Below are positions 33,398 to 57,512 of a stretch of DNA of 64,000 nucleotides, in pieces. The position numbers and the translations under genes were made by a program. The notes under the pieces were generated by a model. That model was given only the letters and a program-made list of their open reading frames with translations, searched no databases and was not told where the DNA came from. Source of the stretch: Prochlorococcus sp. AG-436-J02 (lineage in GTDB: Bacteria; Cyanobacteriota; Cyanobacteriia; PCC-6307; Cyanobiaceae); the NCBI GenBank assembly GCA_003212625.1, contig QCPI01000001.1, forward strand, positions 62,001 to 126,000, read 5' to 3'. The stretch's first letter is position 1. Every line of letters begins with the position of its first letter.

Positions 33398-34726
33398 ATG
33401 AGAAATTTGTTTGATGTTTTTGGAGATGAGAAAATAAATAGCCTTTTAAAAAAGTTAATTCTTTTATTCTCTATATCAGGAACAGCTCTTCTGACAGGAT
33501 GTTCATTAACTGTTCCGCTTGTGGTCTTTTCTGGCAATGGAGATGAAGTTTTAAAAGGTACAGCAACTGGATATCTAGATGGAAGTGGAAAGATTCAGTT
33601 CTCAGGAACAACTATTGATGTTCAATGCCAAGGAGACTTTCAGTATCAAAGGACTGGTTACAAGGGCTGGGGGACTGGATCAGTTGAATGCACGGATGGA
33701 ACAACGGCTAATTTTAAATTTGATTCAGCAACTAGTTCAAAAGGATCTGGTTACGGAGATGATAGTAAAGGAAGGTTTTTCTTCTTTGCATATGGATACA
33801 AAGATTCAGTAGCTCGAATTTTATTCGAAAAAGCTGCCGGTCATAGGATTCAAAAAAAAGGACCTGAGCTAATCCCACCAAAAATAACCTTAAAGAGAAG
33901 CTTTTCAATTGAGGAAACTAATAAAACTCAAGATGTTATTTCGAGAGTTAGTCCGCATACGGTTAGGATTCAGACTGAAAAAAATGAAGGAACCGGGTTC
34001 TTTATTGATGGGAAGGAATTGATTTTGACAAATAGCCATGTGGTTGGTCTAGCAGAAACTGTCCAGATTAATTATCAAGACAATAGTTCAACAACTGCTT
34101 CAGTAATAGGCAGAGCTAAAGATATAGATATTGCGCTTCTCAAGGCATATCAACCCAAAGATTTATCTAATCCTATCGCCTTTTGTTATGGCGGCTACCC
34201 AGAAGTAGGTGAAGATGTTATTGCTATTGGTAATCCAATAGGCTTAGGAACAACAATTACGAAAGGTATTGTAAGTGGATTAAGAGGAAGTGGAATAACA
34301 AAGCAAATACAAACAGATACATCAGTAAACCCGGGGAATAGTGGGGGACCATTGATAAATTACAGAGGTGAAATTATTGGGGTCGTAACTTCTAAAATAG
34401 GAGGAATTGGTATTGAGAATATTGCATTTGCTATCCCGACCGAACAAGCTATTGACTCTCTTGGAATAGACGTAGAATCAACAAATGCTGAGCAAAATCT
34501 TACCAAATGTGGGAATCAGATCCTTGAAGATAAAAGTTCAAAAAACGCTTTTCAAAATTTTCTGAGTTTTTCTGATGAGAATCAAGTGTCAAATAAAACA
34601 TTAGAGAATAGTAATTCCAAAAATAATTCAGGCTTTTTAGAAAATGAATCTTTTTATAAGCTTTTATCTTTTGTCTTAGGGATTTGCCTTGTACTTACTT
34701 TTATGACCTCTAGGTTTAAGAAATAG
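33398..34726 (+). CDS. trypsin-like (Deg-type) serine protease, membrane lipoprotein
   Basis: A 442-residue protein. A lipoprotein signal ends LLTGCS near residue 35. Residues about 45-155 are a separate Gly/Thr-rich beta domain of unknown type. A trypsin-like domain spans about 185-365 with the full triad: His in TNSHVVGLA, Asp in AKDIDIALLK and Ser in NPGNSGGPL. A C-terminal membrane segment spans about 415-438 and ends RFKK. The PDZ domains of canonical Deg/HtrA proteases are absent. It is probably anchored at both ends on the periplasmic side. Target unknown. Confidence 0.88.
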   Translation: MRNLFDVFGDEKINSLLKKLILLFSISGTALLTGCSLTVPLVVFSGNGDEVLKGTATGYLDGSGKIQFSGTTIDVQCQGDFQYQRTGYKGWGTGSVECTDGTTANFKFDSATSSKGSGYGDDSKGRFFFFAYGYKDSVARILFEKAAGHRIQKKGPELIPPKITLKRSFSIEETNKTQDVISRVSPHTVRIQTEKNEGTGFFIDGKELILTNSHVVGLAETVQINYQDNSSTTASVIGRAKDIDIALLKAYQPKDLSNPIAFCYGGYPEVGEDVIAIGNPIGLGTTITKGIVSGLRGSGITKQIQTDTSVNPGNSGGPLINYRGEIIGVVTSKIGGIGIENIAFAIPTEQAIDSLGIDVESTNAEQNLTKCGNQILEDKSSKNAFQNFLSFSDENQVSNKTLENSNSKNNSGFLENESFYKLLSFVLGICLVLTFMTSRFKK

Positions 34727-38997: not shown

Positions 38998-39104
38998 TTG
39001 GACAGCTAAAACTATGTTTTAATTTCAAATTGTCTCAAATCGCACATTTCTTTGGCATAGTATAAACTTCAAAATATAATACAATATATCAAAAGAAATT
39101 ATAT

Positions 39105-39773
39105 TTGAGAAAGAAAGTGAGAGTTTTATTCCTTGCATCTGGAGGTGGAAGTACAGCAAAGAAGCTTTATGATTTATCTCAAATCAGTAAATATGATGTC
39201 TTTAAAAATATAGAGATTCAAATATTAGCAGATAGGGATTGTGGAGCTTCTCAATGGGCTGAAGAAAAATCTCTTCCACACTTAACAATAGGCAAAAAAG
39301 ATTTTGAGTCAAAGTCAATAGATTGGATCATAAAAAGAAAACCTGATATTGTAGTAACCACAATATATAAGATTTTAAGTAAAGAATTTATTGAGGCTGT
39401 TTCTAGTAACTTAATCAATTTGCATTACTCTTTATTACCAGCATTTAATGGAGGTATTGGTGAGAAGGTCGTAGATGATGCAATTCAATATGGCTCAAGG
39501 ATTTTTGGAGCAACTTGCCATCAGGTTACTGAATTAGTAGATCTAGGAAAACCAATAACTCAGGCTGCATTTATTCCCACTAAACTTAATAGAAATCATA
39601 TTTTAGAAATATCATTTAGATGTGGATGTATTGCTTTATTCTCGGCAATCAATAATATTCATTTTATGGATAATAAGAAAATAAGAACTGGCCAGATAAT
39701 ACTTAAAGATGAATTAATAATTTATAGTGGCGAAGATAAATATATATCTCAATTGAAAGAAGATTTTTGGTAA
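39105..39773 (+). CDS. PurN-like formyltransferase
   Basis: A 222-residue formyltransferase-fold protein. An N-terminal VRVLFLASGGGSTAKKL is followed by the catalytic region NLHYSLLPAFNGG, where Asn and His correspond to the PurN catalytic residues, and QVTELVDLGKPITQA with the catalytic Asp. The folate-dependent chemistry is therefore intact. It is shorter and diverged from purine GAR transformylase, and its place at the head of a carbohydrate cluster suggests N-formylation of an amino sugar. The start is TTG at 39105 or GTG at 39117. It is separated from the next gene by 75 bases. Confidence 0.75.
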   Translation: MRKKVRVLFLASGGGSTAKKLYDLSQISKYDVFKNIEIQILADRDCGASQWAEEKSLPHLTIGKKDFESKSIDWIIKRKPDIVVTTIYKILSKEFIEAVSSNLINLHYSLLPAFNGGIGEKVVDDAIQYGSRIFGATCHQVTELVDLGKPITQAAFIPTKLNRNHILEISFRCGCIALFSAINNIHFMDNKKIRTGQIILKDELIIYSGEDKYISQLKEDFW

Positions 39774-39848
39774 AATATGATGTTATTTGTATTTTAATTA
39801 GAGTAATTTTCAAAGTAAATTCCTAACAAATTTTTAATTCTATTAACA

Positions 39849-40283
39849 ATGAATGACCTAAAAACAAATAATTTTCGAAGAAATTATTACATAATTTATG
39901 ATGGTGAATGCGTAGTATGCAGTCGATTTATTGGATTTTTAGATAGAAAATCTAGTAAAACAAGGTATAATATTTATGTTATGCCTGAAGCCAATCTTTT
40001 ACCTTGCAAGGATATAGATCTTCAGCTGATTAAGACTCTAAGTTCTCAAAGTATAATTTTAGTTGATGATAAAGGTAACATGTCTATCCGTTCTAATGCA
40101 ATAATAAATATATTTAAGATTACTGGTGACAAATTCTTAGGAAAAATTTCCATATTAATGTCATTGTTTCCTCGCATATTTTCTGATATAATTTATATTA
40201 TTTTCTCTAAAGTAAGAAGAAAGTTATTTATTCGAAACTCATGTAAATTGGCAAGACTTCAGAATATATATATCTTAAGCTAA
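39849..40283 (+). CDS. DCC-family (DUF393) thiol-disulfide protein
   Basis: A 144-residue protein with the defining DCC motif near the N-terminus, YYIIYDGECVVCSRFIGFLD (D-G-x-C-x2-C), and a downstream SIILVDDKGNMSIRSNAIIN as in the thioredoxin-like fold of this family. A hydrophobic stretch near residues 100-120 may associate with membrane. DCC proteins are often encoded beside HTTM-domain membrane proteins, and a candidate HTTM-like protein lies two genes downstream (41503). Confidence 0.8.
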   Translation: MNDLKTNNFRRNYYIIYDGECVVCSRFIGFLDRKSSKTRYNIYVMPEANLLPCKDIDLQLIKTLSSQSIILVDDKGNMSIRSNAIINIFKITGDKFLGKISILMSLFPRIFSDIIYIIFSKVRRKLFIRNSCKLARLQNIYILS

Positions 40284-40404
40284 ATATTAAAAATCTACTT
40301 AGACCTTGTAAAAAGTGAACCAGAAATCAAACTGAATTGATATCAATAGCAAACTAAAAATTATATGCTAAATTAACCCAAAATAAAGAAGCCTACACAA
40401 ATTA

Positions 40405-41469
40405 ATGAACTCCCAAGAGTTGTTGACTCATAGAGATGCAAGTGCATTCCCTCTGATGGTAGTGGTTTCTATTGTTTATCCATGTAATTTTGGGTGTCCA
40501 AATTGTCCTTATACAGATGAAAATAGTGATTTAAGAAAGTTTTATAAAGCCAATAAAGCAGATAGACTTCCGCGAATACTTTGGGACAAAATAGCTGATG
40601 AATGTGCAAAATATGGAAGCTATATAAGGTGTACTGGAGGAGGAGAACCATTACTGCATCCTGAATTGCCAGATATGATATCCAGTGCAAAAAGTAAAGG
40701 TGCAAAAGTTTGGCTTAACACCAATGGCTCTATGTTTGGACCGGATGCTGCGGGACGGAGGAGGCTTCAGCAAATAATTGATTCTGGTGTTGATATGATT
40801 GAATTTTCTATGGATGCTGCAGATGCTTACACCTATAGCAAGCTTAGACCTCCAATATCAGGGAAGGATCCCAGAAGTATTGATAAAAGATGGGAAGATC
40901 AAGTTAACAATATTCGTGAAGCGCTAAAGGTGAGAAGTCAGAAGAAAGCTAGTGATACAAATATAGTTGTGTCAATGATCAGGCAGAAAGCATTAGGAGA
41001 TGTTGAGACAGCAGAAAGATTTTGGAGAAATGAAGTTAAGGTTGATAATGTAATTACTAGAAAATTTTTAAGTTGGGATGATAATACTAATATAAATCTA
41101 GATAACTCTATAGATAACAATTTATACGGTGATTATCAGAATGATGTAGAAGACCTTTCTAATCTAAGTCCTTGTGTTTGGTTGTTTGAGAGATTAAATA
41201 TCGATACACTTGGTCAATTTGCATTGTGTGGGCAAGATATTAGCTTTACTACTGCACATAAGTTCCCTACACTTTATGATTCGAGTATAGAAGAAGTATG
41301 GCAAAATAATATATTTAAAAGTTATAGGCAGGCTCATATAAATGGGAAAGCAGGTGAGTTGTCACCATGTAAAAATTGTTCAGCTTGGAAAGCGGGGATT
41401 AGAGATTGGAACTATGGATGGCTAAATGTTATCAAGAATGCAAAACCACAAGTTACTGCAGCTTCCTAG
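40405..41469 (+). CDS. radical SAM protein with SPASM-type C-terminus
   Basis: A 354-residue enzyme. The cluster motif is VYPCNFGCPNCPYTDE (CxxxCxxC), followed by CTGGGEPLLHPELPD, the glycine-rich SAM-binding GGEP. The C-terminal region has further cysteines in NLSPCVWLF, FALCGQDI and SPCKNCSAWKAG, consistent with a SPASM domain binding an additional Fe-S cluster. SPASM enzymes modify peptides or sugars, including dehydrogenation and epimerisation. Given the neighbours, a sugar or cell-surface substrate is likelier than a peptide, and no precursor peptide is evident. Substrate unknown. Confidence 0.87.
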   Translation: MNSQELLTHRDASAFPLMVVVSIVYPCNFGCPNCPYTDENSDLRKFYKANKADRLPRILWDKIADECAKYGSYIRCTGGGEPLLHPELPDMISSAKSKGAKVWLNTNGSMFGPDAAGRRRLQQIIDSGVDMIEFSMDAADAYTYSKLRPPISGKDPRSIDKRWEDQVNNIREALKVRSQKKASDTNIVVSMIRQKALGDVETAERFWRNEVKVDNVITRKFLSWDDNTNINLDNSIDNNLYGDYQNDVEDLSNLSPCVWLFERLNIDTLGQFALCGQDISFTTAHKFPTLYDSSIEEVWQNNIFKSYRQAHINGKAGELSPCKNCSAWKAGIRDWNYGWLNVIKNAKPQVTAAS

Positions 41470-41502
41470 TTAAATAGCAATTAATATTCAATCAATTATG
41501 TT

Positions 41503-42864
41503 ATGCTTATTCCTTCAGATTTAAAGCCTTTTATTGAAATTTTTCTTTTTTTAATCTCTCTACATCCACTTATATATATATGCTTTAATAAAATATACCA
41601 ATCAAGTAATACGAGAAACAGTTATTACATTGATAGTGATTGGATCTCTAGATTTGGAACTAATAGTTTCACAATAATTTTTAGTATAATATTAAGTTGC
41701 TTTGTTTTTTTTGTTCACTCTTGGCTACTACTTGTACCTTTACTTTTAACTACATGGATATGTTTTATTAGAGATAGATTTAAGGCTCTTTCTCGTGGTT
41801 TAGGGGCTCCAGGTTATTTCACATTTCTTTTTACATTAACTTTGACAAGTCATTATTTACTTAATACAAAATATATTCTATTGAATCAATCTCATTTGCT
41901 GCTCTTAAATTGGATAATTGGATTTATTTACTCTGTAATATATGTTGAGTTCGGATTTATATTTATTTCAGCAGGCTTATTTAAAATTTTGGACACTAAC
42001 AAAGTGCCACTATCTTTTGCTTTAGGCCTGTTAAACCCAATGTGGTCTAAAGTTTATTTATATATTAAATTTATAGAATTTAATCGATTAATCTTAAACT
42101 GGCTAGGACCATTATTACAATTAATTGCTGGTTTGCTTATTGTATCTGCAAACACGAAATTCGCTTTTGTTGGATTTCTTTTGATTGCATTAATGTTTTT
42201 GAGTATTACACCTTTCACAAGACTTTCTTGGCTTTGTCCGTCAATTGCTTCATTATCTATATACCATTTACTTATTTTAAATGATATCAACTCTATCAAT
42301 ATAAATTTAATTTTCCTTGCTGTATTTATTCGTGCTTTGGTTTATATATTTATCATAAAACAATACTTTGGAATTTTACCTATTACTTATAAAAGATTAA
42401 TGGAGAAAATAGTTTATATATATAGAAAATTAATGGGAGTTATAGTATGGAAAGTTTTTACATTTGATATAGTAAGAAATGTTGCACTTACTAAAGGAAT
42501 GAGTGAGATTGTGGAATCTTCAGAATCTACAATAGGATTAAAAGAGAAAGAATCTTTTATTAAATTATCAAGTTATACTAATGTTTATGACTCTATTACA
42601 GTCTCCGCTTTACTTTCCTCCGAAGATTATTTGGAACCAGATTTATTTCAAGATAGGATAAATCATTTTTGTATGGTAATGGGTATTGAAAGGCTAATAT
42701 CTCTTAGAGTAAGTCCCAAGGTCGCTTCAGAAAAATATGAAAACAAAGGACCTTTTATGAGAGGAGAAATGAGGATCTTTCCTATTACTGAAAAGCCAGC
42801 TACTAATCGTAAACTCAATTATAATTTTGATAATTATAATTCAAGAGAAAAGTTTGATGATTGA
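41503..42864 (+). CDS. polytopic membrane protein, possibly HTTM-like
   Basis: A 453-residue protein with about eight hydrophobic segments between residues 8 and 290, and a soluble C-terminal part from about residue 320. Segments such as RDRFKALSRGLGAPGYFTFL and EFGFIFISAGLFKILD, plus its nearness to a DUF393 protein, recall HTTM (gamma-carboxylase-like) membrane proteins. I could not confirm the family. The soluble tail (residues 355-430) includes an acidic segment SSEDYLEPDLFQDRINHFC. It starts 33 bases after the radical SAM gene. Confidence 0.55.
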   Translation: MLIPSDLKPFIEIFLFLISLHPLIYICFNKIYQSSNTRNSYYIDSDWISRFGTNSFTIIFSIILSCFVFFVHSWLLLVPLLLTTWICFIRDRFKALSRGLGAPGYFTFLFTLTLTSHYLLNTKYILLNQSHLLLLNWIIGFIYSVIYVEFGFIFISAGLFKILDTNKVPLSFALGLLNPMWSKVYLYIKFIEFNRLILNWLGPLLQLIAGLLIVSANTKFAFVGFLLIALMFLSITPFTRLSWLCPSIASLSIYHLLILNDINSININLIFLAVFIRALVYIFIIKQYFGILPITYKRLMEKIVYIYRKLMGVIVWKVFTFDIVRNVALTKGMSEIVESSESTIGLKEKESFIKLSSYTNVYDSITVSALLSSEDYLEPDLFQDRINHFCMVMGIERLISLRVSPKVASEKYENKGPFMRGEMRIFPITEKPATNRKLNYNFDNYNSREKFDD

Positions 42865-42900
42865 TGTTTCTATACAAAAATTGATAACTAGTATTTAATT

Positions 42901-44727
42901 ATGTGCGGAATATTCGGCTCTTTTGGGACATCTTTATCTGTGGAGACCCTAAGAAAGGTTCGTGAAAAAATCCAGCATCGTGGCCCGGACGATTTTCATG
43001 AAATCTCATTTGACAATAAATTTATATTTACTTGCGCAGCTGTAAGATTAGCATTCCAGGATGAAATTAATGGTAGGCAGCCTTTTGCATCAAATGAAGA
43101 TTTAGATCTTGTAGTTAGTTTAAATGGTGAGATTTTTAACTATAAGGAATTAAAAGAAAAGTTTTATAATACAGTTTATAGCTTAGGAACTCATTGTGAT
43201 ACAGAACTTCTTATACCTCTTTATATGGATGAAGGCATTGATTCAATCAGGAAGATCAATGGTATGTATGCATTATCTATAGTAGATAGAACAAATTCTA
43301 GCGCATATCTAGCAACAGATTTTTTAGGGCAAAAACCTATTTTTTATTATTTTTCTAATAATATTCTTTTTTATGCTTCAGAAATAGAGCCTTTATTAGA
43401 ATTAATTAAAAGCACTCTAGGAGAAGATAGCCTTCCAAAAATAAATGAAAAAGCTTTAACTAATATTGTTCTTTATAAGTCAACAGTTGATGGAGAAACA
43501 GTATATGAAGGTATTAAAAGATTGAAGCCTGGTGAAATTATAAAATATGATTTTGCTAAAGGATCTTTAACTTCTTCTTTTTATGATAATTTTGAAAGAA
43601 AATATTCAATTTCTTCAGTACAAAGTGAGGAGAAAGTGATTAGCAATATAAATGAATTGCTTAGGGAGGCAGTCCGTAGAAGGATAGATTCAAGCAAGCC
43701 TCAATCGGTTTATTTAAGCGGTGGATTAGACTCTTCATTAATTACTTCTATCATCCGTGACCTATATCCAAAATTAGAAATTCATAGCTTTACTCTTGCT
43801 TATAAAGGAATAAAAGAAGCGAAAGGTAAGTCATTAGATTTGAAACTTGCGAAGGAAGTCTCTTCCAGAAATTCTTTAGTGCATCACATAATAAATATAG
43901 ATCCAGCTGATCTCGATAGCTTTATGCCAACTATACTCAAAGGTTTTGGCGAGCCTTTTGCATCAGTTCCATCTATGTGGTTTGTAGCTAATGAAATTAA
44001 AAAGTATTCTAAATATACTCTTTCAGGTGATGGTGCTGACGAATTATTTGGTAGCTATTTTACTCATAGAGAGGCAACTAAATCGAATGTATTCTCTACA
44101 AAAAATGCTCAAGATCTTCATGCTGAATATATGCTGTCGTTCTTACCAAGTCATATGCAGAACAATATGAAATTTAAAAATTTAAAGAATAAGACTCTAA
44201 AAGTTGAGAAGCTAATTGAAAAAATTAATACTACAATGGAGAAAAGAAATCCAATCTTTAATCAATTAATATTTGAATCTAGAATGTTATTTCCTTATGG
44301 TGTATTAACTTATATAGATAGACTTTCTATGTCACATAGTATTGAACCGAGGTCACCTTTCCTTGATAAGGATTTATGGGAATATGTATATACTTTAGAT
44401 GATAATTATCGAATTAGAAACAATCAAACTAAATATGCATTGAAAAAAGTAGCTGAAAGCTATTTACCTTTTGAACTTATATATAGAAAGAAAGAAGGTT
44501 TTGTTTTTCCACTTTATCCATACTTAATAAAATCAAAAGTTGAAATTATTTCTAGGATTTTACGCCTTAATGATATATTTAAAGATTTTGAAGATGGATG
44601 GTTAAATATAGAGTGGTTAGAAGCGGCTTTTAGCGAAATTGAGAGAAGTAAGGGCTTAGCATTTAAAACTTCTCAAATTATTCATTCTCTTAATTCTATA
44701 GCTATATGGGCAAAAAATAGAAAATGA
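42901..44727 (+). CDS. asnB: asparagine synthetase-like glutamine amidotransferase
   Basis: A 608-residue class II amidotransferase. Cys2 of MCGIFGSFG is the glutaminase nucleophile and RGPDDFHE is the conserved loop. The synthetase half has the PP-loop SVYLSGGLDSSLITSI near residue 278 and the LSGDGADELFG motif near residue 382. Paralogues of AsnB in surface-polysaccharide clusters amidate sugar acids or link amino acids to sugars, so asparagine synthesis is not assumed. Its stop overlaps the start of the WbqC gene by 4 bases (ATGA). Confidence 0.9.
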   Translation: MCGIFGSFGTSLSVETLRKVREKIQHRGPDDFHEISFDNKFIFTCAAVRLAFQDEINGRQPFASNEDLDLVVSLNGEIFNYKELKEKFYNTVYSLGTHCDTELLIPLYMDEGIDSIRKINGMYALSIVDRTNSSAYLATDFLGQKPIFYYFSNNILFYASEIEPLLELIKSTLGEDSLPKINEKALTNIVLYKSTVDGETVYEGIKRLKPGEIIKYDFAKGSLTSSFYDNFERKYSISSVQSEEKVISNINELLREAVRRRIDSSKPQSVYLSGGLDSSLITSIIRDLYPKLEIHSFTLAYKGIKEAKGKSLDLKLAKEVSSRNSLVHHIINIDPADLDSFMPTILKGFGEPFASVPSMWFVANEIKKYSKYTLSGDGADELFGSYFTHREATKSNVFSTKNAQDLHAEYMLSFLPSHMQNNMKFKNLKNKTLKVEKLIEKINTTMEKRNPIFNQLIFESRMLFPYGVLTYIDRLSMSHSIEPRSPFLDKDLWEYVYTLDDNYRIRNNQTKYALKKVAESYLPFELIYRKKEGFVFPLYPYLIKSKVEIISRILRLNDIFKDFEDGWLNIEWLEAAFSEIERSKGLAFKTSQIIHSLNSIAIWAKNRK

Positions 44728-45425
44728 AAGTAGCAGTTATACAACCTTCTTATATTCCTTGGCTTGGTTATTTTCATATGGTCAAATGGGCAGACACTTT
44801 TATTTTTTATGATGACGTTCAATATGATAATAATGGCTGGCGAAATAGGAATAAGATTTTAGTCAACGAGCAAGTGAAATGGCTTACTCTCTCTATTGAT
44901 AGAAAATCTTTATCAAATAATTTAAATGAGCGAATCTTGAATAGAGTTAAATTATCAAATTTAGAACAATTCTCTAATCATAAAAGATTATTAAAACTGT
45001 ATTATAAACATTCTAAGTATCTTTCAGAGTTAGAAGATATATATTCTGACCAACTCAATAAAATTGATTTTCTTTCGGAAGCCGTGATTTCTCATACAGC
45101 GAACATTTGTGAAATTCTAAATATAAAAACTAAATTAATTAGATCTAGTGATATCAATTACTCAAGTTCTAAATATAGTTTGATGACTGATGCCCGTCAA
45201 CGAAGAAATCTTCGCTTACTAGCTTTATTAAAGGAAGTTGGATGTACAGAATACATGTCAGGTGTTTCAGCTGGAAATTATTTAGATTTAGATTTGTATA
45301 AATCAGAGTCTATTAATGTGTATTGGAATAATTACAAAGAAAACAATTCAGATATTAAACTGTCAATAATCCATTACTTGCTGATACATGGCCGACAACA
45401 AGTGATAGAATATTTAAACAAGTAA
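44724..45425 (+). CDS. WbqC family protein
   Basis: A 233-residue WbqC-family protein. The opening VAVIQPSYIPWLGYFHMVKW, then FYDDVQYDNNGWRNRNKI, GVSAGNYLD and the C-terminal HYLLIHGRQQVIEYL are the conserved segments. WbqC proteins occur in O-antigen clusters and are associated with attaching amino acids such as glycine to amino sugars. The mechanism is poorly defined. Its coupling to the AsnB-like gene (4-base overlap) supports a joint amidation or aminoacylation step. Confidence 0.87.
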   Translation: MKVAVIQPSYIPWLGYFHMVKWADTFIFYDDVQYDNNGWRNRNKILVNEQVKWLTLSIDRKSLSNNLNERILNRVKLSNLEQFSNHKRLLKLYYKHSKYLSELEDIYSDQLNKIDFLSEAVISHTANICEILNIKTKLIRSSDINYSSSKYSLMTDARQRRNLRLLALLKEVGCTEYMSGVSAGNYLDLDLYKSESINVYWNNYKENNSDIKLSIIHYLLIHGRQQVIEYLNK

Positions 45426-45436
45426 AAGATTACTAG

Positions 45437-46459
45437 ATGAGAGTACTGGTTACAGGAGGAGCAGGTTTTATAGGTTCAAATCTTGTTAGAAAGTTGGTTA
45501 GCAACCCAATTGTCGAAAAAGTTATTGTCGTTGATTTACTTACATATGCAGGTCACTTACCTAATCTTAGAGATATTAGTAAAAACAAATTGAAATTGAT
45601 AATTGGTGATGTAGCTAATGGTCAGCTAATGGATAATATAATTTGCGATGTAGATTTTGTTTTTCATTTAGCCGCAGAAACACATGTGACCAGATCAATA
45701 TATGATAATTATCAGTTTTTTCATACCGATGTAATGGGTACACAGTCGGTATCTAACTGTGTCTTAAGGCAATCTAGTAAAAGAAAAATTAGCATTCCTC
45801 TTATTCATTTATCAACGTCAGAAGTTTATGGTACTGCTGAAACAGAGAATATGGATGAAACTCATCCATTGAATCCTTGCAGTCCTTATGCTGCTGCGAA
45901 GGCAGGCGCAGATAGGCTTGTATATTCTTATGCTAAAACTTATGGATTAAATTCACTTATCATTAGACCATTTAATCAGTTTGGTCCTTACCAGCATCCG
46001 GAGAAAGCTATTCCTCGTTTTATAACAAGTGCTATTAATGGTGAGTTATTACCTGTCCATGGTGATGGTTTGGCGGAGAGAGATTGGACACATGTCCTTG
46101 ATACGACTAACTTTTTGGCATCCTTAATTGATAAAAATTTATCTTCGTATAAGGGCGATGTATTTAATATCGGCTCAGATAATTCGATATCTATTAAGAA
46201 GATAGCAGAATTGGTAGCCGATGAATTTTCTAATGCAAAAATTAATTTTATTGATGAGAGACCCGGGCAGGTCGTTAGGCATACGTGTGATTCGTCAAAA
46301 GCAAAAAAAATGCTTGGTTGGAAAATTACGCAAAGTCTAAAAAGTTCTTTGTCTGAATTAGTTGAATGGTATAGAAACAATCAAGATATTTGGTTACCTC
46401 ATATGCTTGTGAAAGATATTGAACTTGAAATAATTCCAGGCTGCAAGATAAAACATTGA
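45437..46459 (+). CDS. NAD-dependent nucleotide-sugar 4,6-dehydratase/epimerase
   Basis: A 340-residue extended SDR enzyme. The NAD-binding loop is VTGGAGFIGSNLVRKL, and the catalytic region is LSTSEVYGTA with the Tyr/Lys pair in SPYAAAKAGADRLV. The C-terminal RPGQVVRHTCDSSKAKKMLG is typical of nucleotide-sugar dehydratases. The STSEVYGTA form resembles LegB-type dehydratases more than RmlB, which has TDEVYG. The aminotransferase that normally follows LegB is next (1 base after the stop), supporting formation of a 4-keto-6-deoxy sugar that is then aminated. Confidence 0.85.
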   Translation: MRVLVTGGAGFIGSNLVRKLVSNPIVEKVIVVDLLTYAGHLPNLRDISKNKLKLIIGDVANGQLMDNIICDVDFVFHLAAETHVTRSIYDNYQFFHTDVMGTQSVSNCVLRQSSKRKISIPLIHLSTSEVYGTAETENMDETHPLNPCSPYAAAKAGADRLVYSYAKTYGLNSLIIRPFNQFGPYQHPEKAIPRFITSAINGELLPVHGDGLAERDWTHVLDTTNFLASLIDKNLSSYKGDVFNIGSDNSISIKKIAELVADEFSNAKINFIDERPGQVVRHTCDSSKAKKMLGWKITQSLKSSLSELVEWYRNNQDIWLPHMLVKDIELEIIPGCKIKH

Positions 46460-46460
46460 A

Positions 46461-47612
46461 TTGTCAAAAAATAATCAAGTGAAAATCCCATTTTATAAAC
46501 ATCAATTAGGAGCAAGTGAAATAGGCGCATTTAGTTCAGCTGTAAAAGCTGAAATACTTACTACTGGAAATCAGGTATTTGACTTTGAGGCTGAATTTGC
46601 AAGCTTTTTAAATACTAGGTATTGTGTCGCTGTTCAAAGTTGTACTGCTGGACTTCAACTTTGCTTAGAGGCATATGAGTTTGAAGCTGACTCAGAAGTT
46701 ATTACTACTCCTTTGACATATATCGCTACTGCGTTATCTATTCTTCAGGCACGATTAAAGCCAGTTTTTTGCGATGTAGATCCAAACACAGGTAATATAG
46801 ATATTAGAAAGATCAAGAACTATATAACCTCAAGAACAGTAGCTATAATGCCTGTTCATTTATACGGTCAAATGGTCGATATGGTTGCTTTATCTCAACT
46901 GGCAAAAGAGAATAATTTAGTATGTATTGAAGATGCTGCGCATTGTATAGAAGGAACCAGAGAAAATTATGGTCCAGCATCACTATCTGATGCGGCTTGT
47001 TTTTCTTTTTATGCAACCAAAAACGTCACCTGTGGTGAAGGTGGTTGCATAGCAACAAATTCATTAGAAATGGCTAATAAGCTTAGAAGTCTTAGATCTC
47101 ATGGCGTCTCAAAGATGGCTTTTGACAGGCATAAGGAAGGTTACTCTCACTGGGATTTAAAGACTTTAGGCTGGAAATATAATTTGGATAATTTACATGC
47201 ATCTATATTGAGACCTCAATTGCCATTAATTAAAAATAAACTTAAACAAAGAGAAAATGCGGCTCATTATTATCAAAAATTGTTGAAAGATATTCAAGAG
47301 GTAAATCTGATTGCTATTGATGAAAATGTTATCCATGCAAGACATTTATTCCCCATTAGAGTATCAAGTAATTATCGTGACAAACTCATAAAGTATCTTG
47401 AAAAATCTAATATTGGCACTGTAGTCAATTATAGATCATTAAATAATTATTCTATTCTAATGAAGAAATCTGGATATGATGCAGAATCATTTAAGAATGC
47501 ATCGGAAATTGGTGATGAAGTTCTGTCTCTACCTATGTACCCTCAGATCAGAAATGAAGAGATTGATTTTATCGTCAATGCTATATCAAACTTCTTCAAA
47601 GAAGTAAATTAA
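46461..47612 (+). CDS. DegT/DnrJ/EryC1-family sugar aminotransferase
   Basis: A 383-residue PLP enzyme that transfers an amino group to a keto-sugar. Family features are IPFYKHQLGASEIGAFSSAV, TGNQVFDFEAEFASFL, VIEDAAH-like VCIEDAAHCIEGTR, and FYATKNVTCGEGGCIATN containing the PLP-binding Lys. It has a TTG start 1 base after the preceding stop; a GTG 18 bases later is also possible. Together with the upstream dehydratase it should make a 4-amino-4,6-dideoxy (or similar) nucleotide sugar, a plausible substrate for the formyltransferase at 39105. Confidence 0.88.
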   Translation: MSKNNQVKIPFYKHQLGASEIGAFSSAVKAEILTTGNQVFDFEAEFASFLNTRYCVAVQSCTAGLQLCLEAYEFEADSEVITTPLTYIATALSILQARLKPVFCDVDPNTGNIDIRKIKNYITSRTVAIMPVHLYGQMVDMVALSQLAKENNLVCIEDAAHCIEGTRENYGPASLSDAACFSFYATKNVTCGEGGCIATNSLEMANKLRSLRSHGVSKMAFDRHKEGYSHWDLKTLGWKYNLDNLHASILRPQLPLIKNKLKQRENAAHYYQKLLKDIQEVNLIAIDENVIHARHLFPIRVSSNYRDKLIKYLEKSNIGTVVNYRSLNNYSILMKKSGYDAESFKNASEIGDEVLSLPMYPQIRNEEIDFIVNAISNFFKEVN

Positions 47613-47619
47613 TTATTTA

Positions 47620-48852
47620 GTGGTATCAATTGGCAAAAAAAAAACAATAGATAGAAAAAAGATACTTCTTCTTAGTGATATTGAGGTAGGTGGGTTGCCT
47701 TCTAGAATGGCAAATTACATTACTAAACGGGGATATTCAGTTTTCTATGTATATGTTAAGACGAATAAATCTAATGATGAAGAATATAAGCATGATACTG
47801 GTAGTTTTCATGATGATGGATCAGATGAATCAGAACAATTCCAAAAAATCTCATTGCGTTATAGGGGGGTAATATATAATTTACTTGTTAACAGCTTAAT
47901 AGTTTTTGTTATATGGATTCGAATTGGAAGACCTAAAGTTTATTCTTATGGTGCTTATTTTATAAGCTTATTTGTGCCTATAAAATCTAATTATACCTAT
48001 GGAGAAGAATTAAATAGAATTTTCTCACCTCTTACCTTTGTTTTCAATTTGGTAAAGCTAAATAAACCCAAAAAAATTATAAATAGTTTGTATACGAATA
48101 TTTTTGCGCCTATTTTACATTTTTGGTGTTTCTGGAAAGCAAAATATATATACATAGATCCTAATTTTCAACGAATGATCAAGCAAGATCATTGGATCTT
48201 ACATATTTTTAATAATAAATTTGTTAATTTTCCACACTTGCCAGTATTGGAGTTTTGTATGATTAAGGAAAATATAGAATCAACTTTTAATAACAATATC
48301 AAAACAATAAAATTACTAATACCATCAACATTTCATTATTCAAGTAATACTGTAGCCAAAGTAGATAATAAAGGAGTATCTACTGCTTTAAGGCAACTTA
48401 AAAATTTATACAAGCTCTATCCTTTGAATTTTGAACTAACAATGATTATTAAAGGCTCTTATTATCATTCTGAGCAACGTTTAAATAGACTTTTACTCGA
48501 GTATCCTTTTGTAAAATTAGTAGAACAGTTGCCAAGAAAGAGATATTTAGAAGAGATTCTATATTATCACGACATCGTTATAGATAACTTAAGCAGTCCA
48601 ATCTTAAATCTTTGTTCAATTGAGTCATTACTAAATACCACTCCTGTTGTTTCTTTTGGCGATCCTAAACTTTATGATTATTTATTGTACCCTCCAATTA
48701 ATAATGTAAATAGTGAAAGAGGATTTTACAATGTAATTGAAAAGTTCATCAAATCTCCTGAAGAAATAGAGTTAAGTCTATCTAAAATTAGATCATGGAA
48801 GGAACGACTTTGTAATCTTCCAAATAATCAATTTGATTATTTTATAAATTAA
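47620..48852 (+). CDS. putative GT-B glycosyltransferase
   Basis: A 410-residue protein with an N-terminal Rossmann-like opening (KILLLSDIEVGGLPSRMANY) and a C-terminal half whose pattern suits GT-B glycosyltransferases: a strand with a charged loop (MIIKGSYYHSEQRLNRLL), YYHDIVIDNL, then a nucleotide-sugar-like SIESLLNTTPVVSFGDPKLY. Similarity is weak and the assignment is by fold pattern and cluster context. It reads from GTG 7 bases after the aminotransferase and is the last gene of the cluster. Confidence 0.55.
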   Translation: MVSIGKKKTIDRKKILLLSDIEVGGLPSRMANYITKRGYSVFYVYVKTNKSNDEEYKHDTGSFHDDGSDESEQFQKISLRYRGVIYNLLVNSLIVFVIWIRIGRPKVYSYGAYFISLFVPIKSNYTYGEELNRIFSPLTFVFNLVKLNKPKKIINSLYTNIFAPILHFWCFWKAKYIYIDPNFQRMIKQDHWILHIFNNKFVNFPHLPVLEFCMIKENIESTFNNNIKTIKLLIPSTFHYSSNTVAKVDNKGVSTALRQLKNLYKLYPLNFELTMIIKGSYYHSEQRLNRLLLEYPFVKLVEQLPRKRYLEEILYYHDIVIDNLSSPILNLCSIESLLNTTPVVSFGDPKLYDYLLYPPINNVNSERGFYNVIEKFIKSPEEIELSLSKIRSWKERLCNLPNNQFDYFIN

Positions 48853-49271: not shown

Positions 49272-49287
49272 AAGTTGATATGTTTTT

Positions 49288-49311
49288 GTTGCAAGTAGTT
49301 GTACTTGCAAC
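49288..49311. terminator. 10-base-pair hairpin
   Basis: GTTGCAAGTA and TACTTGCAAC form a perfect 10-base stem with a GTTG loop, followed on the plus strand by ACGTTGTC and a short T-run. It is 17 bases after the stop of the possible small gene and is a fair candidate for an intrinsic terminator. Confidence 0.5.
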
Positions 49312-49473
49312 ACGTTGTCTTTTTATAAATCATCTATATTTTTCGGTGAAAAATAAGATTCACTACTATTAATTTACCTTTGCTTGTGGGTGGCTTTGTG
49401 ATTTTTTTGTTGTATAACTGGACTAACAAAAATAGGTTTTGATGATGAACCAATTACATTCCTAGGAAAAAAA

Positions 49474-51053: not shown

Positions 51054-52226
51054 TCATGAATTATCTTCTAGGCATTGATCAAAGTTTTTTGCTATAAATT
51101 CCGCTAGGAATTTATAGCCTTGATAATTAAAATGTTTATGGTCATTAATTCCATGAAGATATTGACTTTTTGCCTTAGTAGTTAAATGAGAAGTTGAGTC
51201 AATCATTGAAATATCTATCTTTCTTAAATTGTTCATTATTAAGGTTCGAATATAATTGGAATTAGCAGTATTTACACTTGTATAAACCATTCCACTTTGA
51301 TTTAATGGACCATGATTATAGCGTTTATAATATATCTTTTTTGGAGAGTATATCGTCGCGGGAGAAGGTATATAAACTAGACAAATGCGGGCATTATACT
51401 TATCTTTAAAAGTTTTAATATGTGAGACTGTGAAATTTATTGCTTCCTTAACTTGTGCATTTGTAAGTTGCGGAGATGCAGATTGCATATTTGGAACTCG
51501 TAGACAATTGTTTTTTATGCAAATATTATTTGATTGTTTTATCGTATAATTATTTTTTAAAGTATCATCCTCATCTTTAACCTTTGACTTGAATAAAGGT
51601 ATTTTATTGAATGAAATAATTAAATTATTCACATGCTTTTTAATATTATAATGATAAAAATTAGCTAATATCTCACCTGTTGGAAAGTATCTTTGTATGA
51701 TCGATTTGTGATGGTTTTTCCCATTAATCCAGCTTTTTCTCTTTTTATCCCTGAAATAATCTTCCAAGTCATTACCTTCATAAAAAGTTAAAATTAATCT
51801 CGGCTTTTTGCCTAAGTTAACTTGGTGACTTACTGATGGTGCATATTCACCTTCTATAGAGTTGTTTAGGAGAAATAGTTGTCGAGCTAGGAATGATCCT
51901 CCATTAGCATTTAATGAATAAGAATATGGCGTTATTAAATTTAAATGATGCGCAAAGGAATAGTTATAATCACCTTTAACAAAGGAATCTCCGTATCCTT
52001 CTGCGTAACTATCTCCAACTATCATTACCCTTTTATCTAGATACTTCTTATAGATATCCGGGTATTTCCATCTATTTAATGCAGGTATATACTTAAGTGA
52101 TTGTCTAGGGAAACCCGAACGTTGGTCAACAGAATTCAGCCAGGTGAATGTGTAAATATTTACAATAGTTAAACCTATTATTGTTGACCCTGTTAATAGG
52201 AAGAGATTTTGTAGAAGATTATACAT
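51054..52226 (-). CDS. membrane-anchored SGNH/GDSL-like protein
   Basis: A 390-residue protein. Residues about 5-28 form an N-terminal membrane anchor. The SGNH block I motif is VMIVGDSYAEGYGDSF near residue 68 and the C-terminal block V is GINDHKHFNYQGYKFLAEFI (Asp-x2-His), so the Ser/Asp/His residues of an esterase or O-acyltransferase helper are present. Similar anchored SGNH proteins act on polysaccharide acylation. That fits the nearby glycan cluster but is inference. It has its own hairpin downstream. Confidence 0.72.
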   Translation of the reverse strand: MYNLLQNLFLLTGSTIIGLTIVNIYTFTWLNSVDQRSGFPRQSLKYIPALNRWKYPDIYKKYLDKRVMIVGDSYAEGYGDSFVKGDYNYSFAHHLNLITPYSYSLNANGGSFLARQLFLLNNSIEGEYAPSVSHQVNLGKKPRLILTFYEGNDLEDYFRDKKRKSWINGKNHHKSIIQRYFPTGEILANFYHYNIKKHVNNLIISFNKIPLFKSKVKDEDDTLKNNYTIKQSNNICIKNNCLRVPNMQSASPQLTNAQVKEAINFTVSHIKTFKDKYNARICLVYIPSPATIYSPKKIYYKRYNHGPLNQSGMVYTSVNTANSNYIRTLIMNNLRKIDISMIDSTSHLTTKAKSQYLHGINDHKHFNYQGYKFLAEFIAKNFDQCLEDNS

Positions 52227-53390: not shown

Positions 53391-54143
53391 TTAGGAGTGC
53401 TTATCAAGCTGATTCAGAAATTTTCTACTTCTTTCATGTCTTGCATTAGAAAAGAAAATATCTGGAGTAGATTTTTCTATTACTTTACCTGAATCCATAA
53501 ATAAAACTTGATCACTTACGTCTTTTGCAAAACCAACTTCATGTGTTACGACAACCATTGTCATTCCTTGTTCAGCAAGTCTTCTTATTGCATCTAGAAC
53601 CTCGTTGATTCTTTCTGGATCTAGAGCACTAGTGGGTTCATCGAATAATAGTAGTTCAGGCTTTAAGGCTAGAGCTCTCGCTATGGCTACTCGTTGCTGC
53701 TCACCCCCACTAAGTTGGCTTGGGTATTTGTTAGCATGTGAATCTATTCCCATTTGATTCAAGAGATACATGGCATATTCTTCAGCGTCAATTTGACGAC
53801 GTTTTTGTACGTTTATTGGAGCGAGTGTGATGTTTTCCAAGATTGATAGATGAGGGAATAAATTGAATTGTTGAAAAACCATTCCTACCCTTCTTCTTAT
53901 TCTTTGTATTTGTCGTTCATCATGAGTGGAATCAATTTTTATTCCCAAAACATTTAGTTCTCCTCTATCAAAAGTTTCAAGGCCATTAAAAGTACGAATC
54001 AGCGTACTTTTCCCTGATCCTGAAGGACCCATCACTACTAGGACTTTACCCTGATTGACTGTAAGGGAAACATTGTCAAGAGCTCGCAATCCTTTCGTAT
54101 ACGACTTGGTGAGATTTTTAGCAATAACAATAGGTTGTTTCAT
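53391..54143 (-). CDS. amino-acid ABC transporter ATPase
   Basis: A 250-residue ATPase of the polar-amino-acid (GlnQ/AapP) type. Walker A is GPSGSGKSTLIR, the Q-loop is in GMVFQQFNLFPHL, the signature is LSGGEQQRVAIARAL, Walker B is ELLLFDEPTSALDPE and the switch His is in VVVTHEVGFA. It is the last gene of the four-gene operon, starting 6 bases after the second permease. Confidence 0.95.
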   Translation of the reverse strand: MKQPIVIAKNLTKSYTKGLRALDNVSLTVNQGKVLVVMGPSGSGKSTLIRTFNGLETFDRGELNVLGIKIDSTHDERQIQRIRRRVGMVFQQFNLFPHLSILENITLAPINVQKRRQIDAEEYAMYLLNQMGIDSHANKYPSQLSGGEQQRVAIARALALKPELLLFDEPTSALDPERINEVLDAIRRLAEQGMTMVVVTHEVGFAKDVSDQVLFMDSGKVIEKSTPDIFFSNARHERSRKFLNQLDKHS

Positions 54144-54149
54144 GAAATA

Positions 54150-55178
54150 TCAGAAATTTGCCTGATTAATAGTCATTCTTTTTTCAAGATATCTTGCAAG
54201 AACAGCCATGATTGTACAAACCGACCAATAGACACATGCTAGCCAAACATAAACTTCAATATATTCACCAATGAATTCTGGATTAGCCAGGATACTTCTA
54301 CCTACCCCAAGTAATTCCACTAATCCTAAGATAGCCATTAAAGATGTATTTTGAAATAGTCCGATTGATTGATTAGTCAGAGCTGGTAATGCAATGCGTA
54401 AGGCTTGAGGAATTAATATAAGTTGAATTATTTGATATTGATTAAGTCCAAGACTATTTGCTGCTTCTATTTGAGTATTAGGTATTGATTGTAATCCGCC
54501 ACGAATATCTTCAGCTATGTAGGCAGAGACAAATAGAGTGAATGCAAAGATAGCTCTCCAAACACGATCAATTTCTATTCCTACAGGAAGGAATAAAGGT
54601 ATTAATAGTTGACCAAAAAAAAGCACTGCAATAAGAGGAATTGCTCTCATCACATCTATGTAGATTGAACTTAACTTCTGAATTAACGGTATTGAACTCT
54701 GGCGGCAAAGTGCCAAAATTATCCCTAACGGTAATGATAAAATTGAGCTACAAACGGTCAGTAGAATAGTTAGAGTTAACCCCCCCCAATGTCTACTCAT
54801 TATAGGGGATAAACCAATACCACCATAAAGTAAATAAAGACCTAAAGGGATCGTACTTGCCCATGCAATAAGTAGATTTTTATGTAGCCATTTCCACTTG
54901 GGACCAAAGAGAGTGACGAGACTTAGTACTAGAAGACTAATAAGCCAAGCAGCAGGTCTCCACCGCTCATCAGCTGGAAAGCTACCAAATGCGTATAAAG
55001 GTAGATTCGACGTTATAACTTCCCAATTAGCGTTATATATAAGCCATTTAAAAGTATTTAAACAAAATAAATAAGTTATTACTATAAGTAATAAGCTGAT
55101 AATAGTATTGAATGAATTCGAAAACAAAGTCTTCCTTAGTTTTTTAAAGAAAATTTTAATTAAAGTAAAATTCAGCAT
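54150..55178 (-). CDS. amino-acid ABC transporter permease (AapM/NatH-like)
   Basis: A 342-residue inner-membrane permease of the His/Glu/Gln/Arg type. It has an extended N-terminal region with membrane helices and then the conserved permease domain, with the EAA-like loop QIEAANSLGLNQYQIIQLIL contacting the ATPase. It starts 3 bases after the preceding permease stop. The pair of long permeases with a separate large binding protein matches the AapJQMP/NatFGH-BgtA family, general acidic and neutral amino-acid uptake. Confidence 0.9.
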   Translation of the reverse strand: MLNFTLIKIFFKKLRKTLFSNSFNTIISLLLIVITYLFCLNTFKWLIYNANWEVITSNLPLYAFGSFPADERWRPAAWLISLLVLSLVTLFGPKWKWLHKNLLIAWASTIPLGLYLLYGGIGLSPIMSRHWGGLTLTILLTVCSSILSLPLGIILALCRQSSIPLIQKLSSIYIDVMRAIPLIAVLFFGQLLIPLFLPVGIEIDRVWRAIFAFTLFVSAYIAEDIRGGLQSIPNTQIEAANSLGLNQYQIIQLILIPQALRIALPALTNQSIGLFQNTSLMAILGLVELLGVGRSILANPEFIGEYIEVYVWLACVYWSVCTIMAVLARYLEKRMTINQANF

Positions 55179-55181
55179 GAA

Positions 55182-56081
55182 TTAATTATATTTTCTTGAG
55201 TTAATAATTATCTTATTGATAGTTTCCATGCTATTACTTATTAATAGGTTTAATAATAAAAAACTAGTTAATAATATAAGAAAACACTCGATTGCTCTTC
55301 CTGTTTGGTTTATAATAGTATCATTTATTGCATAAATATCTGAGTATCCAACTGCTATTGCTAGAGTGCTATTTTTTGCAAGATTGAGATATTGACTAGT
55401 TAAACCTGGAATGATTGCTGGTAATGCTTGTGGAATTATGATTTTTAACAGACCTTTTCTCTCTGAGAGTCCTAAGCTCCTAAAAGCTTCCCATTGTCCA
55501 CGAGAGACGGAAAGGATACCTCCACGAATTACTTCTGCTATATAAGCACTGGTGAATATACTTAGACCAAATAATAATGCTGAAAACTCTGATGATAGAG
55601 TTAATCCTAAAAATTCTATTCCTTGATTTGAAATTTTAAATATATTTTTAATATGGAAAAACATATTATTTTTTAGACCTAAGAACCCAACAAAATACCA
55701 AAACATCAGTTGAAGCAAAAGAGGGGTCTGACGGATAATTGTTATATAACCAGCTGAAAATAGACCTAGTAATGAGTTTTTGCCTGTTCTTGCAAAACCT
55801 ATTAGTGTCCCCAAGCAAGTAGCTAAAAGTAATGATGAGATTATTACTTTTAGACTATTGAGCCAACCTATAAATAATGCCCAAGCATAGCTATCTGAAG
55901 ATGAATAGGGTAAGACATGTTCAGCTAAAGCAAAACTTGCTGGTTTAAAGATCCAACTAAAATTAAAACCAAGACCGGTTCTTATTAAATTTATTGTTAG
56001 ATTATTAATTAAAATGCCAATTACACTAATACAGATAATACAAATTCCAAATTGTGAAAATATTTTTTGATTTCTATTCAT
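55182..56081 (-). CDS. amino-acid ABC transporter permease (AapQ/NatG-like)
   Basis: A 299-residue permease with an N-terminal membrane helix, a long periplasmic insertion (about residues 30-65), and the transport domain with QWEAFRSLGLSERKGLLKII as the ATPase-coupling loop. It forms a heterodimer with the next gene product by analogy to AapQM. It lies 19 bases after the binding-protein gene. Confidence 0.9.
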   Translation of the reverse strand: MNRNQKIFSQFGICIICISVIGILINNLTINLIRTGLGFNFSWIFKPASFALAEHVLPYSSSDSYAWALFIGWLNSLKVIISSLLLATCLGTLIGFARTGKNSLLGLFSAGYITIIRQTPLLLQLMFWYFVGFLGLKNNMFFHIKNIFKISNQGIEFLGLTLSSEFSALLFGLSIFTSAYIAEVIRGGILSVSRGQWEAFRSLGLSERKGLLKIIIPQALPAIIPGLTSQYLNLAKNSTLAIAVGYSDIYAINDTIINQTGRAIECFLILLTSFLLLNLLISNSMETINKIIINSRKYN

Positions 56082-56100
56082 TCTATCAATAATTTATTTT

Positions 56101-57147
56101 TTAGTTGAAGGGTGGTGCAATATGTATACCTCCCTTGTTATGCAGTTCATTTAATCCTCTGGGAATAGGTACGTCGCTATTTGCTCCCAAATGTCTTTGA
56201 TAAATCTCTCCATAATTACCGGTTGTGCTAATTACCTTAACCACAAAGTCATTACTAAGACCAATTTTTTCTCCTAGTCCTCCGTCAATACCAAGAAATC
56301 TTCTTAATGGTTTTAATTGAGGATTGTTTTTTGCAAGTTGCACTTTTTCGTCAATGTTTAATTTTGTTATTCCTTGCTCTTCTGCAGATATAAGAGCAAA
56401 AATGACCCACCTCATCGCATCAGCTAATTTTTGGTCTTGACCATCAGAGGCTGGGGCAAGTGGCTCCTTACTTAGCACATTGTCTAAAATAATATGATTT
56501 TTTGGATTTTTAAAACCCGATCTAGCAGCTGCTAACTGTGAACGATCAGAAGTCATAGCGGAACAACGACCCTGTAAATATCCTGCAACTACTTGATTAA
56601 GATCTTGATATTTGATTGGTGTATAAGGAAGTGACGCACTTTCAAACGCATCATTAATATTTTGCTCAGTAGTTGTTCCTGAACCTAAGCAAATGGATTT
56701 ATTTGCAAGGTTTTCAAGAACATTAATGCCACTCCCTTTTTTGACCATTAATCCCTGACCATCATGAAAAACAACTGGTGCAAAAGCTAGTCCATTGCCT
56801 TCAGAGGCATCTCGACTCAGAGTAAAAGTGGTGTTTCTTGATAACAGATCAATTTCACCAGTTTTAATAGCTGTGAATCTTTCTGCCGCAGTAAGAGGTC
56901 TGTATTGGATTTTTTCTGAATCACCTATTATCGCAGCAGCAAATGCTTTGCAAATATCTACATCTAATCCCTGATAATTACCATCACTATCAAGAAAACT
57001 AAATCCAGGTATTTTTCCACTTACTCCACAAATCAATTCATTGCGCTGTTTTATTAAATCCAGTCTAGAACTATTTTTTTGACTTGAGGCGGCGCAGCCA
57101 GCCAATAGCATTGTTAAACCAACTATTCCTGAAACCAATCGACGCAT
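56101..57147 (-). CDS. amino-acid ABC transporter substrate-binding lipoprotein (AapJ/NatF-like)
   Basis: A 348-residue periplasmic-binding-protein-3 family member. From the ATG at 57147 it has a lipoprotein signal MRRLVSGIVGLTMLLAGC, then KQRNELICGVSGKIPGFSFL, GLDVDICKAFAAAIIG and the ligand-binding RNTTFTLSRDASEGNGLAFA, all typical of AapJ/BztA. The frame is open to 57201, but that start would bury the lipoprotein signal. It heads the transporter operon. The ligand is probably L-amino acids, specificity unresolved. Confidence 0.92.
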   Translation of the reverse strand: MRRLVSGIVGLTMLLAGCAASSQKNSSRLDLIKQRNELICGVSGKIPGFSFLDSDGNYQGLDVDICKAFAAAIIGDSEKIQYRPLTAAERFTAIKTGEIDLLSRNTTFTLSRDASEGNGLAFAPVVFHDGQGLMVKKGSGINVLENLANKSICLGSGTTTEQNINDAFESASLPYTPIKYQDLNQVVAGYLQGRCSAMTSDRSQLAAARSGFKNPKNHIILDNVLSKEPLAPASDGQDQKLADAMRWVIFALISAEEQGITKLNIDEKVQLAKNNPQLKPLRRFLGIDGGLGEKIGLSNDFVVKVISTTGNYGEIYQRHLGANSDVPIPRGLNELHNKGGIHIAPPFN

Positions 57148-57512
57148 AATTTTTAAATCATTTGGATTGATCTTCGCCACATTTTTCTGTTTTCTATCCA
57201 ATTAAAGAAAATCTTTTAATTTTCCTTAATTGAAAGTTGTGATCGCGAGAAAACGTCAACATTTAAGAAATGGGGATATTTAATGTAAAAGTAATATTTA
57301 TTAATTATTAATGAATTTTATTTTTGAATTTTTACAAATTAGTAAAATTGGATCAGACTTATAATTGATATATATCATCAAGACCGTTTCTTATTCATAG
57401 CATTTATATGTTCTTTTTTATTCAAACTCTTAACCTATTAGAAAATGTTGTATAATCTCTGAAATACATACAAAATTAAAAATACTCTTGATCTTTATTT
57501 ATTCGATTAGAT
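57148..57512. other. 365-base divergent control region
   Basis: Lies between the divergent transporter operon and the sterol-desaturase-family gene. Very AT-rich, with no gene. I see no convincing NtcA site (GTA-N8-TAC), which would have been informative for an amino-acid transporter. Confidence 0.4.

Follow-up and report, generated by a model that had tools for sequence, protein, structure and literature searches.

The window analysed here is a 64,000-nucleotide stretch (positions 62001-126000 of contig 1) of the genome of Prochlorococcus sp. AG-436-J02, which is 1.05 Mb in size and 54% complete. At 39105-48852 on the plus strand it carries a block of nine open reading frames (ORFs), which we lean towards reading as a horizontally acquired cassette for a surface amino sugar, with the chemistry proposed below. 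An earlier note on this DNA had described nine co-directional genes, and all nine are present where it placed them, with intergenic gaps of -4 to 121 base pairs (bp). The genes that surround the radical S-adenosylmethionine (radical SAM) enzyme of the block co-occur in five genomes of other bacterial groups. The module formed by this enzyme with HTTM-like, AsnB and WbqC proteins appears, provisionally, to be undescribed in the open-access literature searched, where we found no report of radical SAM and WbqC together.

Results

The scan of 84,980 species genomes returned five homologues of the radical SAM enzyme, with 53-57% identity along almost their entire length, in Pirellulales (locus L008), Acidobacteria (L009 and L012), a Melainabacteria-labelled genome (L010) and Planctomycetaceae (L011). 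These loci were picked by radical SAM homology alone. In all five, homologues of the membrane protein, of AsnB and of a GNAT acetyltransferase lie within 10 kb of the radical SAM gene, and WbqC, DegT and dehydratase genes lie in the same stretch or just past it. Since loci selected in this way share the gene set, the block in the window is not a chance grouping. Any one locus could be misleading through the binning of metagenome-assembled genomes, but the five genomes, which are independent, agree. Conservation elsewhere, the check proposed in the earlier note, thus came out positive, and the tie between the radical SAM/DCC/HTTM-like set and amino-sugar genes is seen across phyla. The acyltransferase is exchanged between lineages: GNAT is found in 5/5 cassettes, whereas the window block has a formyltransferase and no GNAT.

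The order at L008 is radical SAM-GNAT-HTTM-like-AsnB-WbqC-dehydratase-DegT-glycosyltransferase, and at L009 it is DegT-radical SAM-GNAT-DCC-HTTM-like-AsnB-(flippase-like)-WbqC-dehydratase. L012 reads DegT-radical SAM-HTTM-like-AsnB-WbqC-dehydratase, with GNAT on the opposite strand, and at L011 a CDP-glucose-dehydratase-like gene precedes radical SAM-GNAT-HTTM-like-AsnB-WbqC-DegT. At L010, taken with L079, GNAT-AsnB and DCC-HTTM-like-radical SAM stand among DUF115-type genes, WbqC-dehydratase-DegT is nearby, and a flagellar-cap-like ORF lies farther on; in genome G630 the block has DUF115-type genes and a flagellar-cap-like gene close by.

In the family, 299 other genomes held no ortholog of the radical SAM enzyme, only weak paralogues (28-32% identity), and no homologue at 1e-25 was found among 385 other genomes of the phylum; the two overlapping samples comprise about 680 relatives. 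Viral contigs held no radical SAM homologue bar a 26% partial match, and none of the formyltransferase or AsnB; a phage origin of the block was considered and rejected. In the radical SAM tree the window sequence sits on a long branch beside other cassette members, and as this placement has no starred support we name no donor. Upstream nucleosidase and TPR-like genes are common to the window and genome G086, and synteny is lost on the downstream side, as expected for a variable island; the insertion-site comparison revealed no empty site.

The block opens with a PurN-type formyltransferase of 222 amino acids (39105..39773; Pfam Formyl_trans_N, PF00551, 8e-21), in which the Asn/His/Asp set reported as intact is found as N105, H107 and D146. 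The dehydratase (45437..46459; GDP_Man_Dehyd/Epimerase 3e-61), previously called LegB-like, fits the RmlB profile better (TIGR01181, 300.7 bits, cut-off 365) than the LegB profile (TIGR04180, 187.8 bits, cut-off 475), reaching neither cut-off. In the PDB it matches TDP-glucose-4,6-dehydratase 1r66 (2e-65), the motifs GGAGFIG, STSEVYG and YAAAK are present, and homologues 48-50% identical occur in L008, L009 and L012; we describe it as an RmlB-like nucleoside-diphosphate (NDP)-sugar 4,6-dehydratase. The adjoining DegT-family sugar aminotransferase (46461..47612; PF01041 5e-101) has the pyridoxal-phosphate lysine, in ATKN, and matches QdtB (3frk, 4.5e-53) and ArnB (1mdo, 1e-51). A dTDP-glucose dehydratase-like gene, a sugar aminotransferase and an N-acylation gene together support the route to a 4-amino-6-deoxy sugar that had been suggested for the block.

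The AsnB-like glutamine amidotransferase/synthetase (42901..44727; Asn_synthase 2e-57 plus GATase_7) scores 334 bits against TIGR01536, whose cut-off is 267.1, and has Cys2 and SGGLDS. The ORF of the WbqC family protein (44724..45425; PF08889 2e-41, 142.6 bits against a cut-off of 21.3) overlaps it by 4 bp. A Foldseek search with the AlphaFold model of WbqC (predicted local distance difference test, pLDDT, 74) ranked several entries for PanC, tRNA-synthetase and ATP-sulfurylase highly, none with an E-value <0.001 (best 0.04, probability 0.63). The profile-profile comparison with PanC gave 0.2%, and we do not claim that WbqC is a pantothenate-synthetase-like ligase.

The radical SAM enzyme (40405..41469; Pfam Radical_SAM 1e-10, SPASM 5e-5) had been described as a radical SAM/SPASM protein. 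The first half of that description stands; the C-terminus is a BtrN-like four-Cys twitch domain rather than a full SPASM domain. In an alignment of six homologues (74% mean column identity) the cysteines C27, C31 and C34 of the CxxxCxxC motif and C257, C275, C322 and C325 are invariant. The enzyme shares that motif and four aligned auxiliary Cys with BtrN (4m7t), the twitch radical SAM dehydrogenase that takes part in making butirosin, but overall similarity is weak (1.5e-4, confined to the C-terminal auxiliary region) and the genomic context is another one. The auxiliary cluster of BtrN is ligated fully by four Cys, and the enzyme carries out a two-electron oxidation of an amino-cyclitol (PMC6231123, PMC9012708). 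Because fold and function are hard to foresee from sequence in this group (PMC6231123), we put forward an oxidation by the window enzyme only as a hypothesis.

The DCC1-like thiol-disulfide oxidoreductase (39849..40283; PF04134 2e-10) has CVVC at residues 21-24. The membrane protein (41503..42864) and four relatives gave no Pfam match, including to HTTM (PF05090). A profile of six cassette membrane proteins, compared with HTTM proteins from the same genomes, reached 97.2% probability (E 3.9e-11) with the conserved lysine of AGxxK, K161, aligned, and the three membrane-protein controls did not exceed 0.3%. The HTTM-like identity given in the earlier note thus holds as profile-profile homology below Pfam detection, and the protein is a divergent member of the HTTM (vitamin-K-carboxylase superfamily) group that differs from the family in an odd C-terminal region and in having no evident carboxylation substrate. 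The homology rests on profiles because the AlphaFold model is poor (pLDDT 44). In L009 and L010 a DCC gene stands next to the one for the HTTM-like protein, and in the window it is one gene away; a search of 7.3 Gb of plasmid sequence gave no homologue of the HTTM-like protein.

Remoter homologues of the radical SAM enzyme (38-40% identity) are again linked to AsnB, WbqC and dehydratase genes. With rSAM2 denoting a second radical SAM gene, the order is formyltransferase-rSAM2-radical SAM-AsnB at L038 and rSAM2-AsnB-radical SAM-WbqC-dehydratase at L043. At L042:2471-4591 formyltransferase and radical SAM are fused; the catalytic N and H have been lost from the formyltransferase domain, which may thus serve in binding. 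WbqC usually stands directly beside an RmlB-like dehydratase (56-67% identity to that of L009), even where the radical SAM gene is elsewhere, and DegT often follows the pair in radical SAM-positive genomes. The two rSAM2 genes (L038:10542-11504, beside the first radical SAM gene, and L043:5139-6032, beside AsnB) are 42% identical to each other. At L073:9783-15145 a WbqC-dehydratase pair is followed by a gene resembling the branched-chain-aminotransferase type and an 856-amino-acid ORF, and Solidesulfovibrio carbinolicus plasmid pDCAR1 (L120:9710-13549) has DegT-radical SAM (27%)-methyltransferase-WbqC with asnB upstream.

On the 3' side of the block, at 49287..49312 on the plus strand, lies an intrinsic-terminator-like hairpin of 11 pairs, a consensus match only. 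The minus-strand gene at 51054-52226 has a sub-threshold GDSL/SGNH match (PF00657, 0.0011) and could be a glycan O-acyl-modifying enzyme adjoining the block; four further minus-strand genes (53391-57201) resemble an amino-acid ABC transporter with a binding protein, two permeases and an ATPase. Upstream, from reading of the translations only, 29106-31550 encodes a repetitive, autotransporter/adhesin-like protein of 814 amino acids with a barrel-like C-terminal region, and 33398-34726 a trypsin-like (HtrA/Deg-type) serine protease region after an unusual lipoprotein-like N-terminus.

Discussion

We infer the reactions of the cassette, their order and its final glycan as follows. Judged by its family, the RmlB-like enzyme would convert an NDP-glucose, probably dTDP-glucose, to a 4-keto-6-deoxy sugar, from which the DegT enzyme would form a 4-amino-4,6-dideoxy sugar. 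The PurN-type enzyme would then N-formylate the amine of this putative acceptor, at the step where relatives would use the GNAT acetyltransferase. More speculatively, the AsnB/WbqC pair could decorate the sugar with an amide or aminoacyl group, the twitch radical SAM enzyme could, in the manner of BtrN, oxidise a ring or side-chain C-H of that building block by two electrons, and DCC and HTTM might be a membrane redox pair acting on a lipid-linked or exported product. Taken together, and tentatively, these steps could amount to a new sugar-modification pathway, in which the radical SAM enzyme, the HTTM/DCC pair and AsnB/WbqC together give a 4-amino-6-deoxy sugar a new group, either oxidised or amidated, and which may have spread by transfer between bacterial groups with formyl and acetyl caps swapped between lineages.

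A close parallel is the Francisella wbt O-antigen locus with its Qui4NFm pathway (WbtM-WbtI-WbtJ), in which an RmlB-like dehydratase, a sugar aminotransferase and an N-formyltransferase are clustered (PMC10924466). In the window, by comparison, the formyltransferase is of PurN type, with a putative sugar substrate, and the block has no flippase or polymerase; an AsnB-WbqC coupling and additional genes for radical SAM, DCC and HTTM proteins, as found here, are not described for Francisella wbt in the passages considered (PMC10924466). WbqC and DegT share a locus in Pseudomonas stutzeri EPS273 and on rhizobial plasmids, as in the window (PMC5532660), but for those clusters no twitch radical SAM ortholog and no HTTM or DCC set is reported.

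Several observations weigh against a surface amino-sugar cassette, and the interpretation should be taken with corresponding caution. No nucleotidyltransferase, flippase or polymerase is found among the nine ORFs; the genome is just 54% complete, and these genes may be encoded elsewhere in it. The product of 47620..48852, which had been called a glycosyltransferase, has no match in Pfam, NCBIfam, PHROGs, the PDB or plasmid records and leaves that call without support; it is possibly a GT-B-like transferase, which is unproven. Catalytic residues are kept in most of the enzymes, but one conserved motif is gone: the window WbqC is without the C-terminal HPxYxQ-type motif, which is found in 21/22 other WbqC rows, the remaining row having a PxYxQ form (some rows are the same gene twice, and the L008 rows were scored by the tail HPTYQQ and not by the upstream HKIYDQ). 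The formyltransferase finds its nearest PDB structure in PurN (3da8, 2e-13), and sugar N-formyltransferases of known structure are absent from its closest PDB matches. Finally, the radical SAM enzyme is present in 12/149 genomes of the phylum of G630, mostly away from the cassette, and at loci L033, L034, L035, L036, L037, L039 and L041 enzymes 50-54% identical to that of the window have no cassette genes nearby, so its substrate may not be the cassette sugar.

This last pattern invites the explanation that mobile islands have set two independent units side by side, namely an ordinary AsnB-WbqC-RmlB-DegT cluster and an unrelated radical SAM/DCC/HTTM unit for cofactor making or repair or for protein modification. 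WbqC-dehydratase pairs on other contigs would fit such an arrangement, as would the best family match of the radical SAM enzyme in NCBIfam, a tungsten-cofactor maturase, although that match is far under its cut-off. Yet the adjacency recurs in Planctomycetes, Acidobacteria and the Melainabacteria-labelled genome, and AsnB neighbours the radical SAM gene even in distant homologues. WbqC, moreover, is present in 17/18 radical SAM-positive genomes (a count without a background rate), the exception having only a partial radical SAM gene, and we regard two unrelated units as unlikely. More weight, though still on the doubtful side, goes to the possibility that the formyltransferase is PurN or a paralogue placed upstream by chance, and that the cassette sugar is unformylated. 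Its best matches are PurN proteins, including cyanophage family phrog_9240 (2.9e-22), and gaps of 75 bp to the DCC gene and 121 bp from there to the radical SAM gene separate it from the rest. Its start codon is a TTG of its own, and it has a promoter-like match at 39052 (11/12), of a kind no commoner in the region than in shuffles. Set against this are a score far under the equivalog cut-off of NCBIfam PurN (TIGR00639; 76.6 against 150.1 bits) and an identity of only ~30% to cyanophage PurN, together with the acyltransferase gene in every other cassette and the formyltransferases tied to radical SAM in L038 and L042.

It could also be argued that the product is not a surface glycan but an amino-sugar natural product, small and diffusible, since AsnB-like and twitch radical SAM enzymes (BtrN, BlsE) act in aminosugar antibiotic pathways (PMC9012708). 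The block is without carrier-protein, polyketide or transporter genes, however, its counterpart in G630 lies beside flagellar and DUF115-type genes, and WbqC is found with DegT in polysaccharide clusters (PMC5532660), which makes a small molecule improbable in our judgement.

In conclusion, the block joins in one conserved context three poorly understood families, WbqC, the non-carboxylase HTTM/DCC proteins and the twitch radical SAM enzymes, and through this shared context each could be assigned a substrate via the same sugar nucleotide. The data also suggest that the glycans a marine picocyanobacterium displays can owe their chemistry to distant bacteria, an import that could bear on recognition by phage or grazers.

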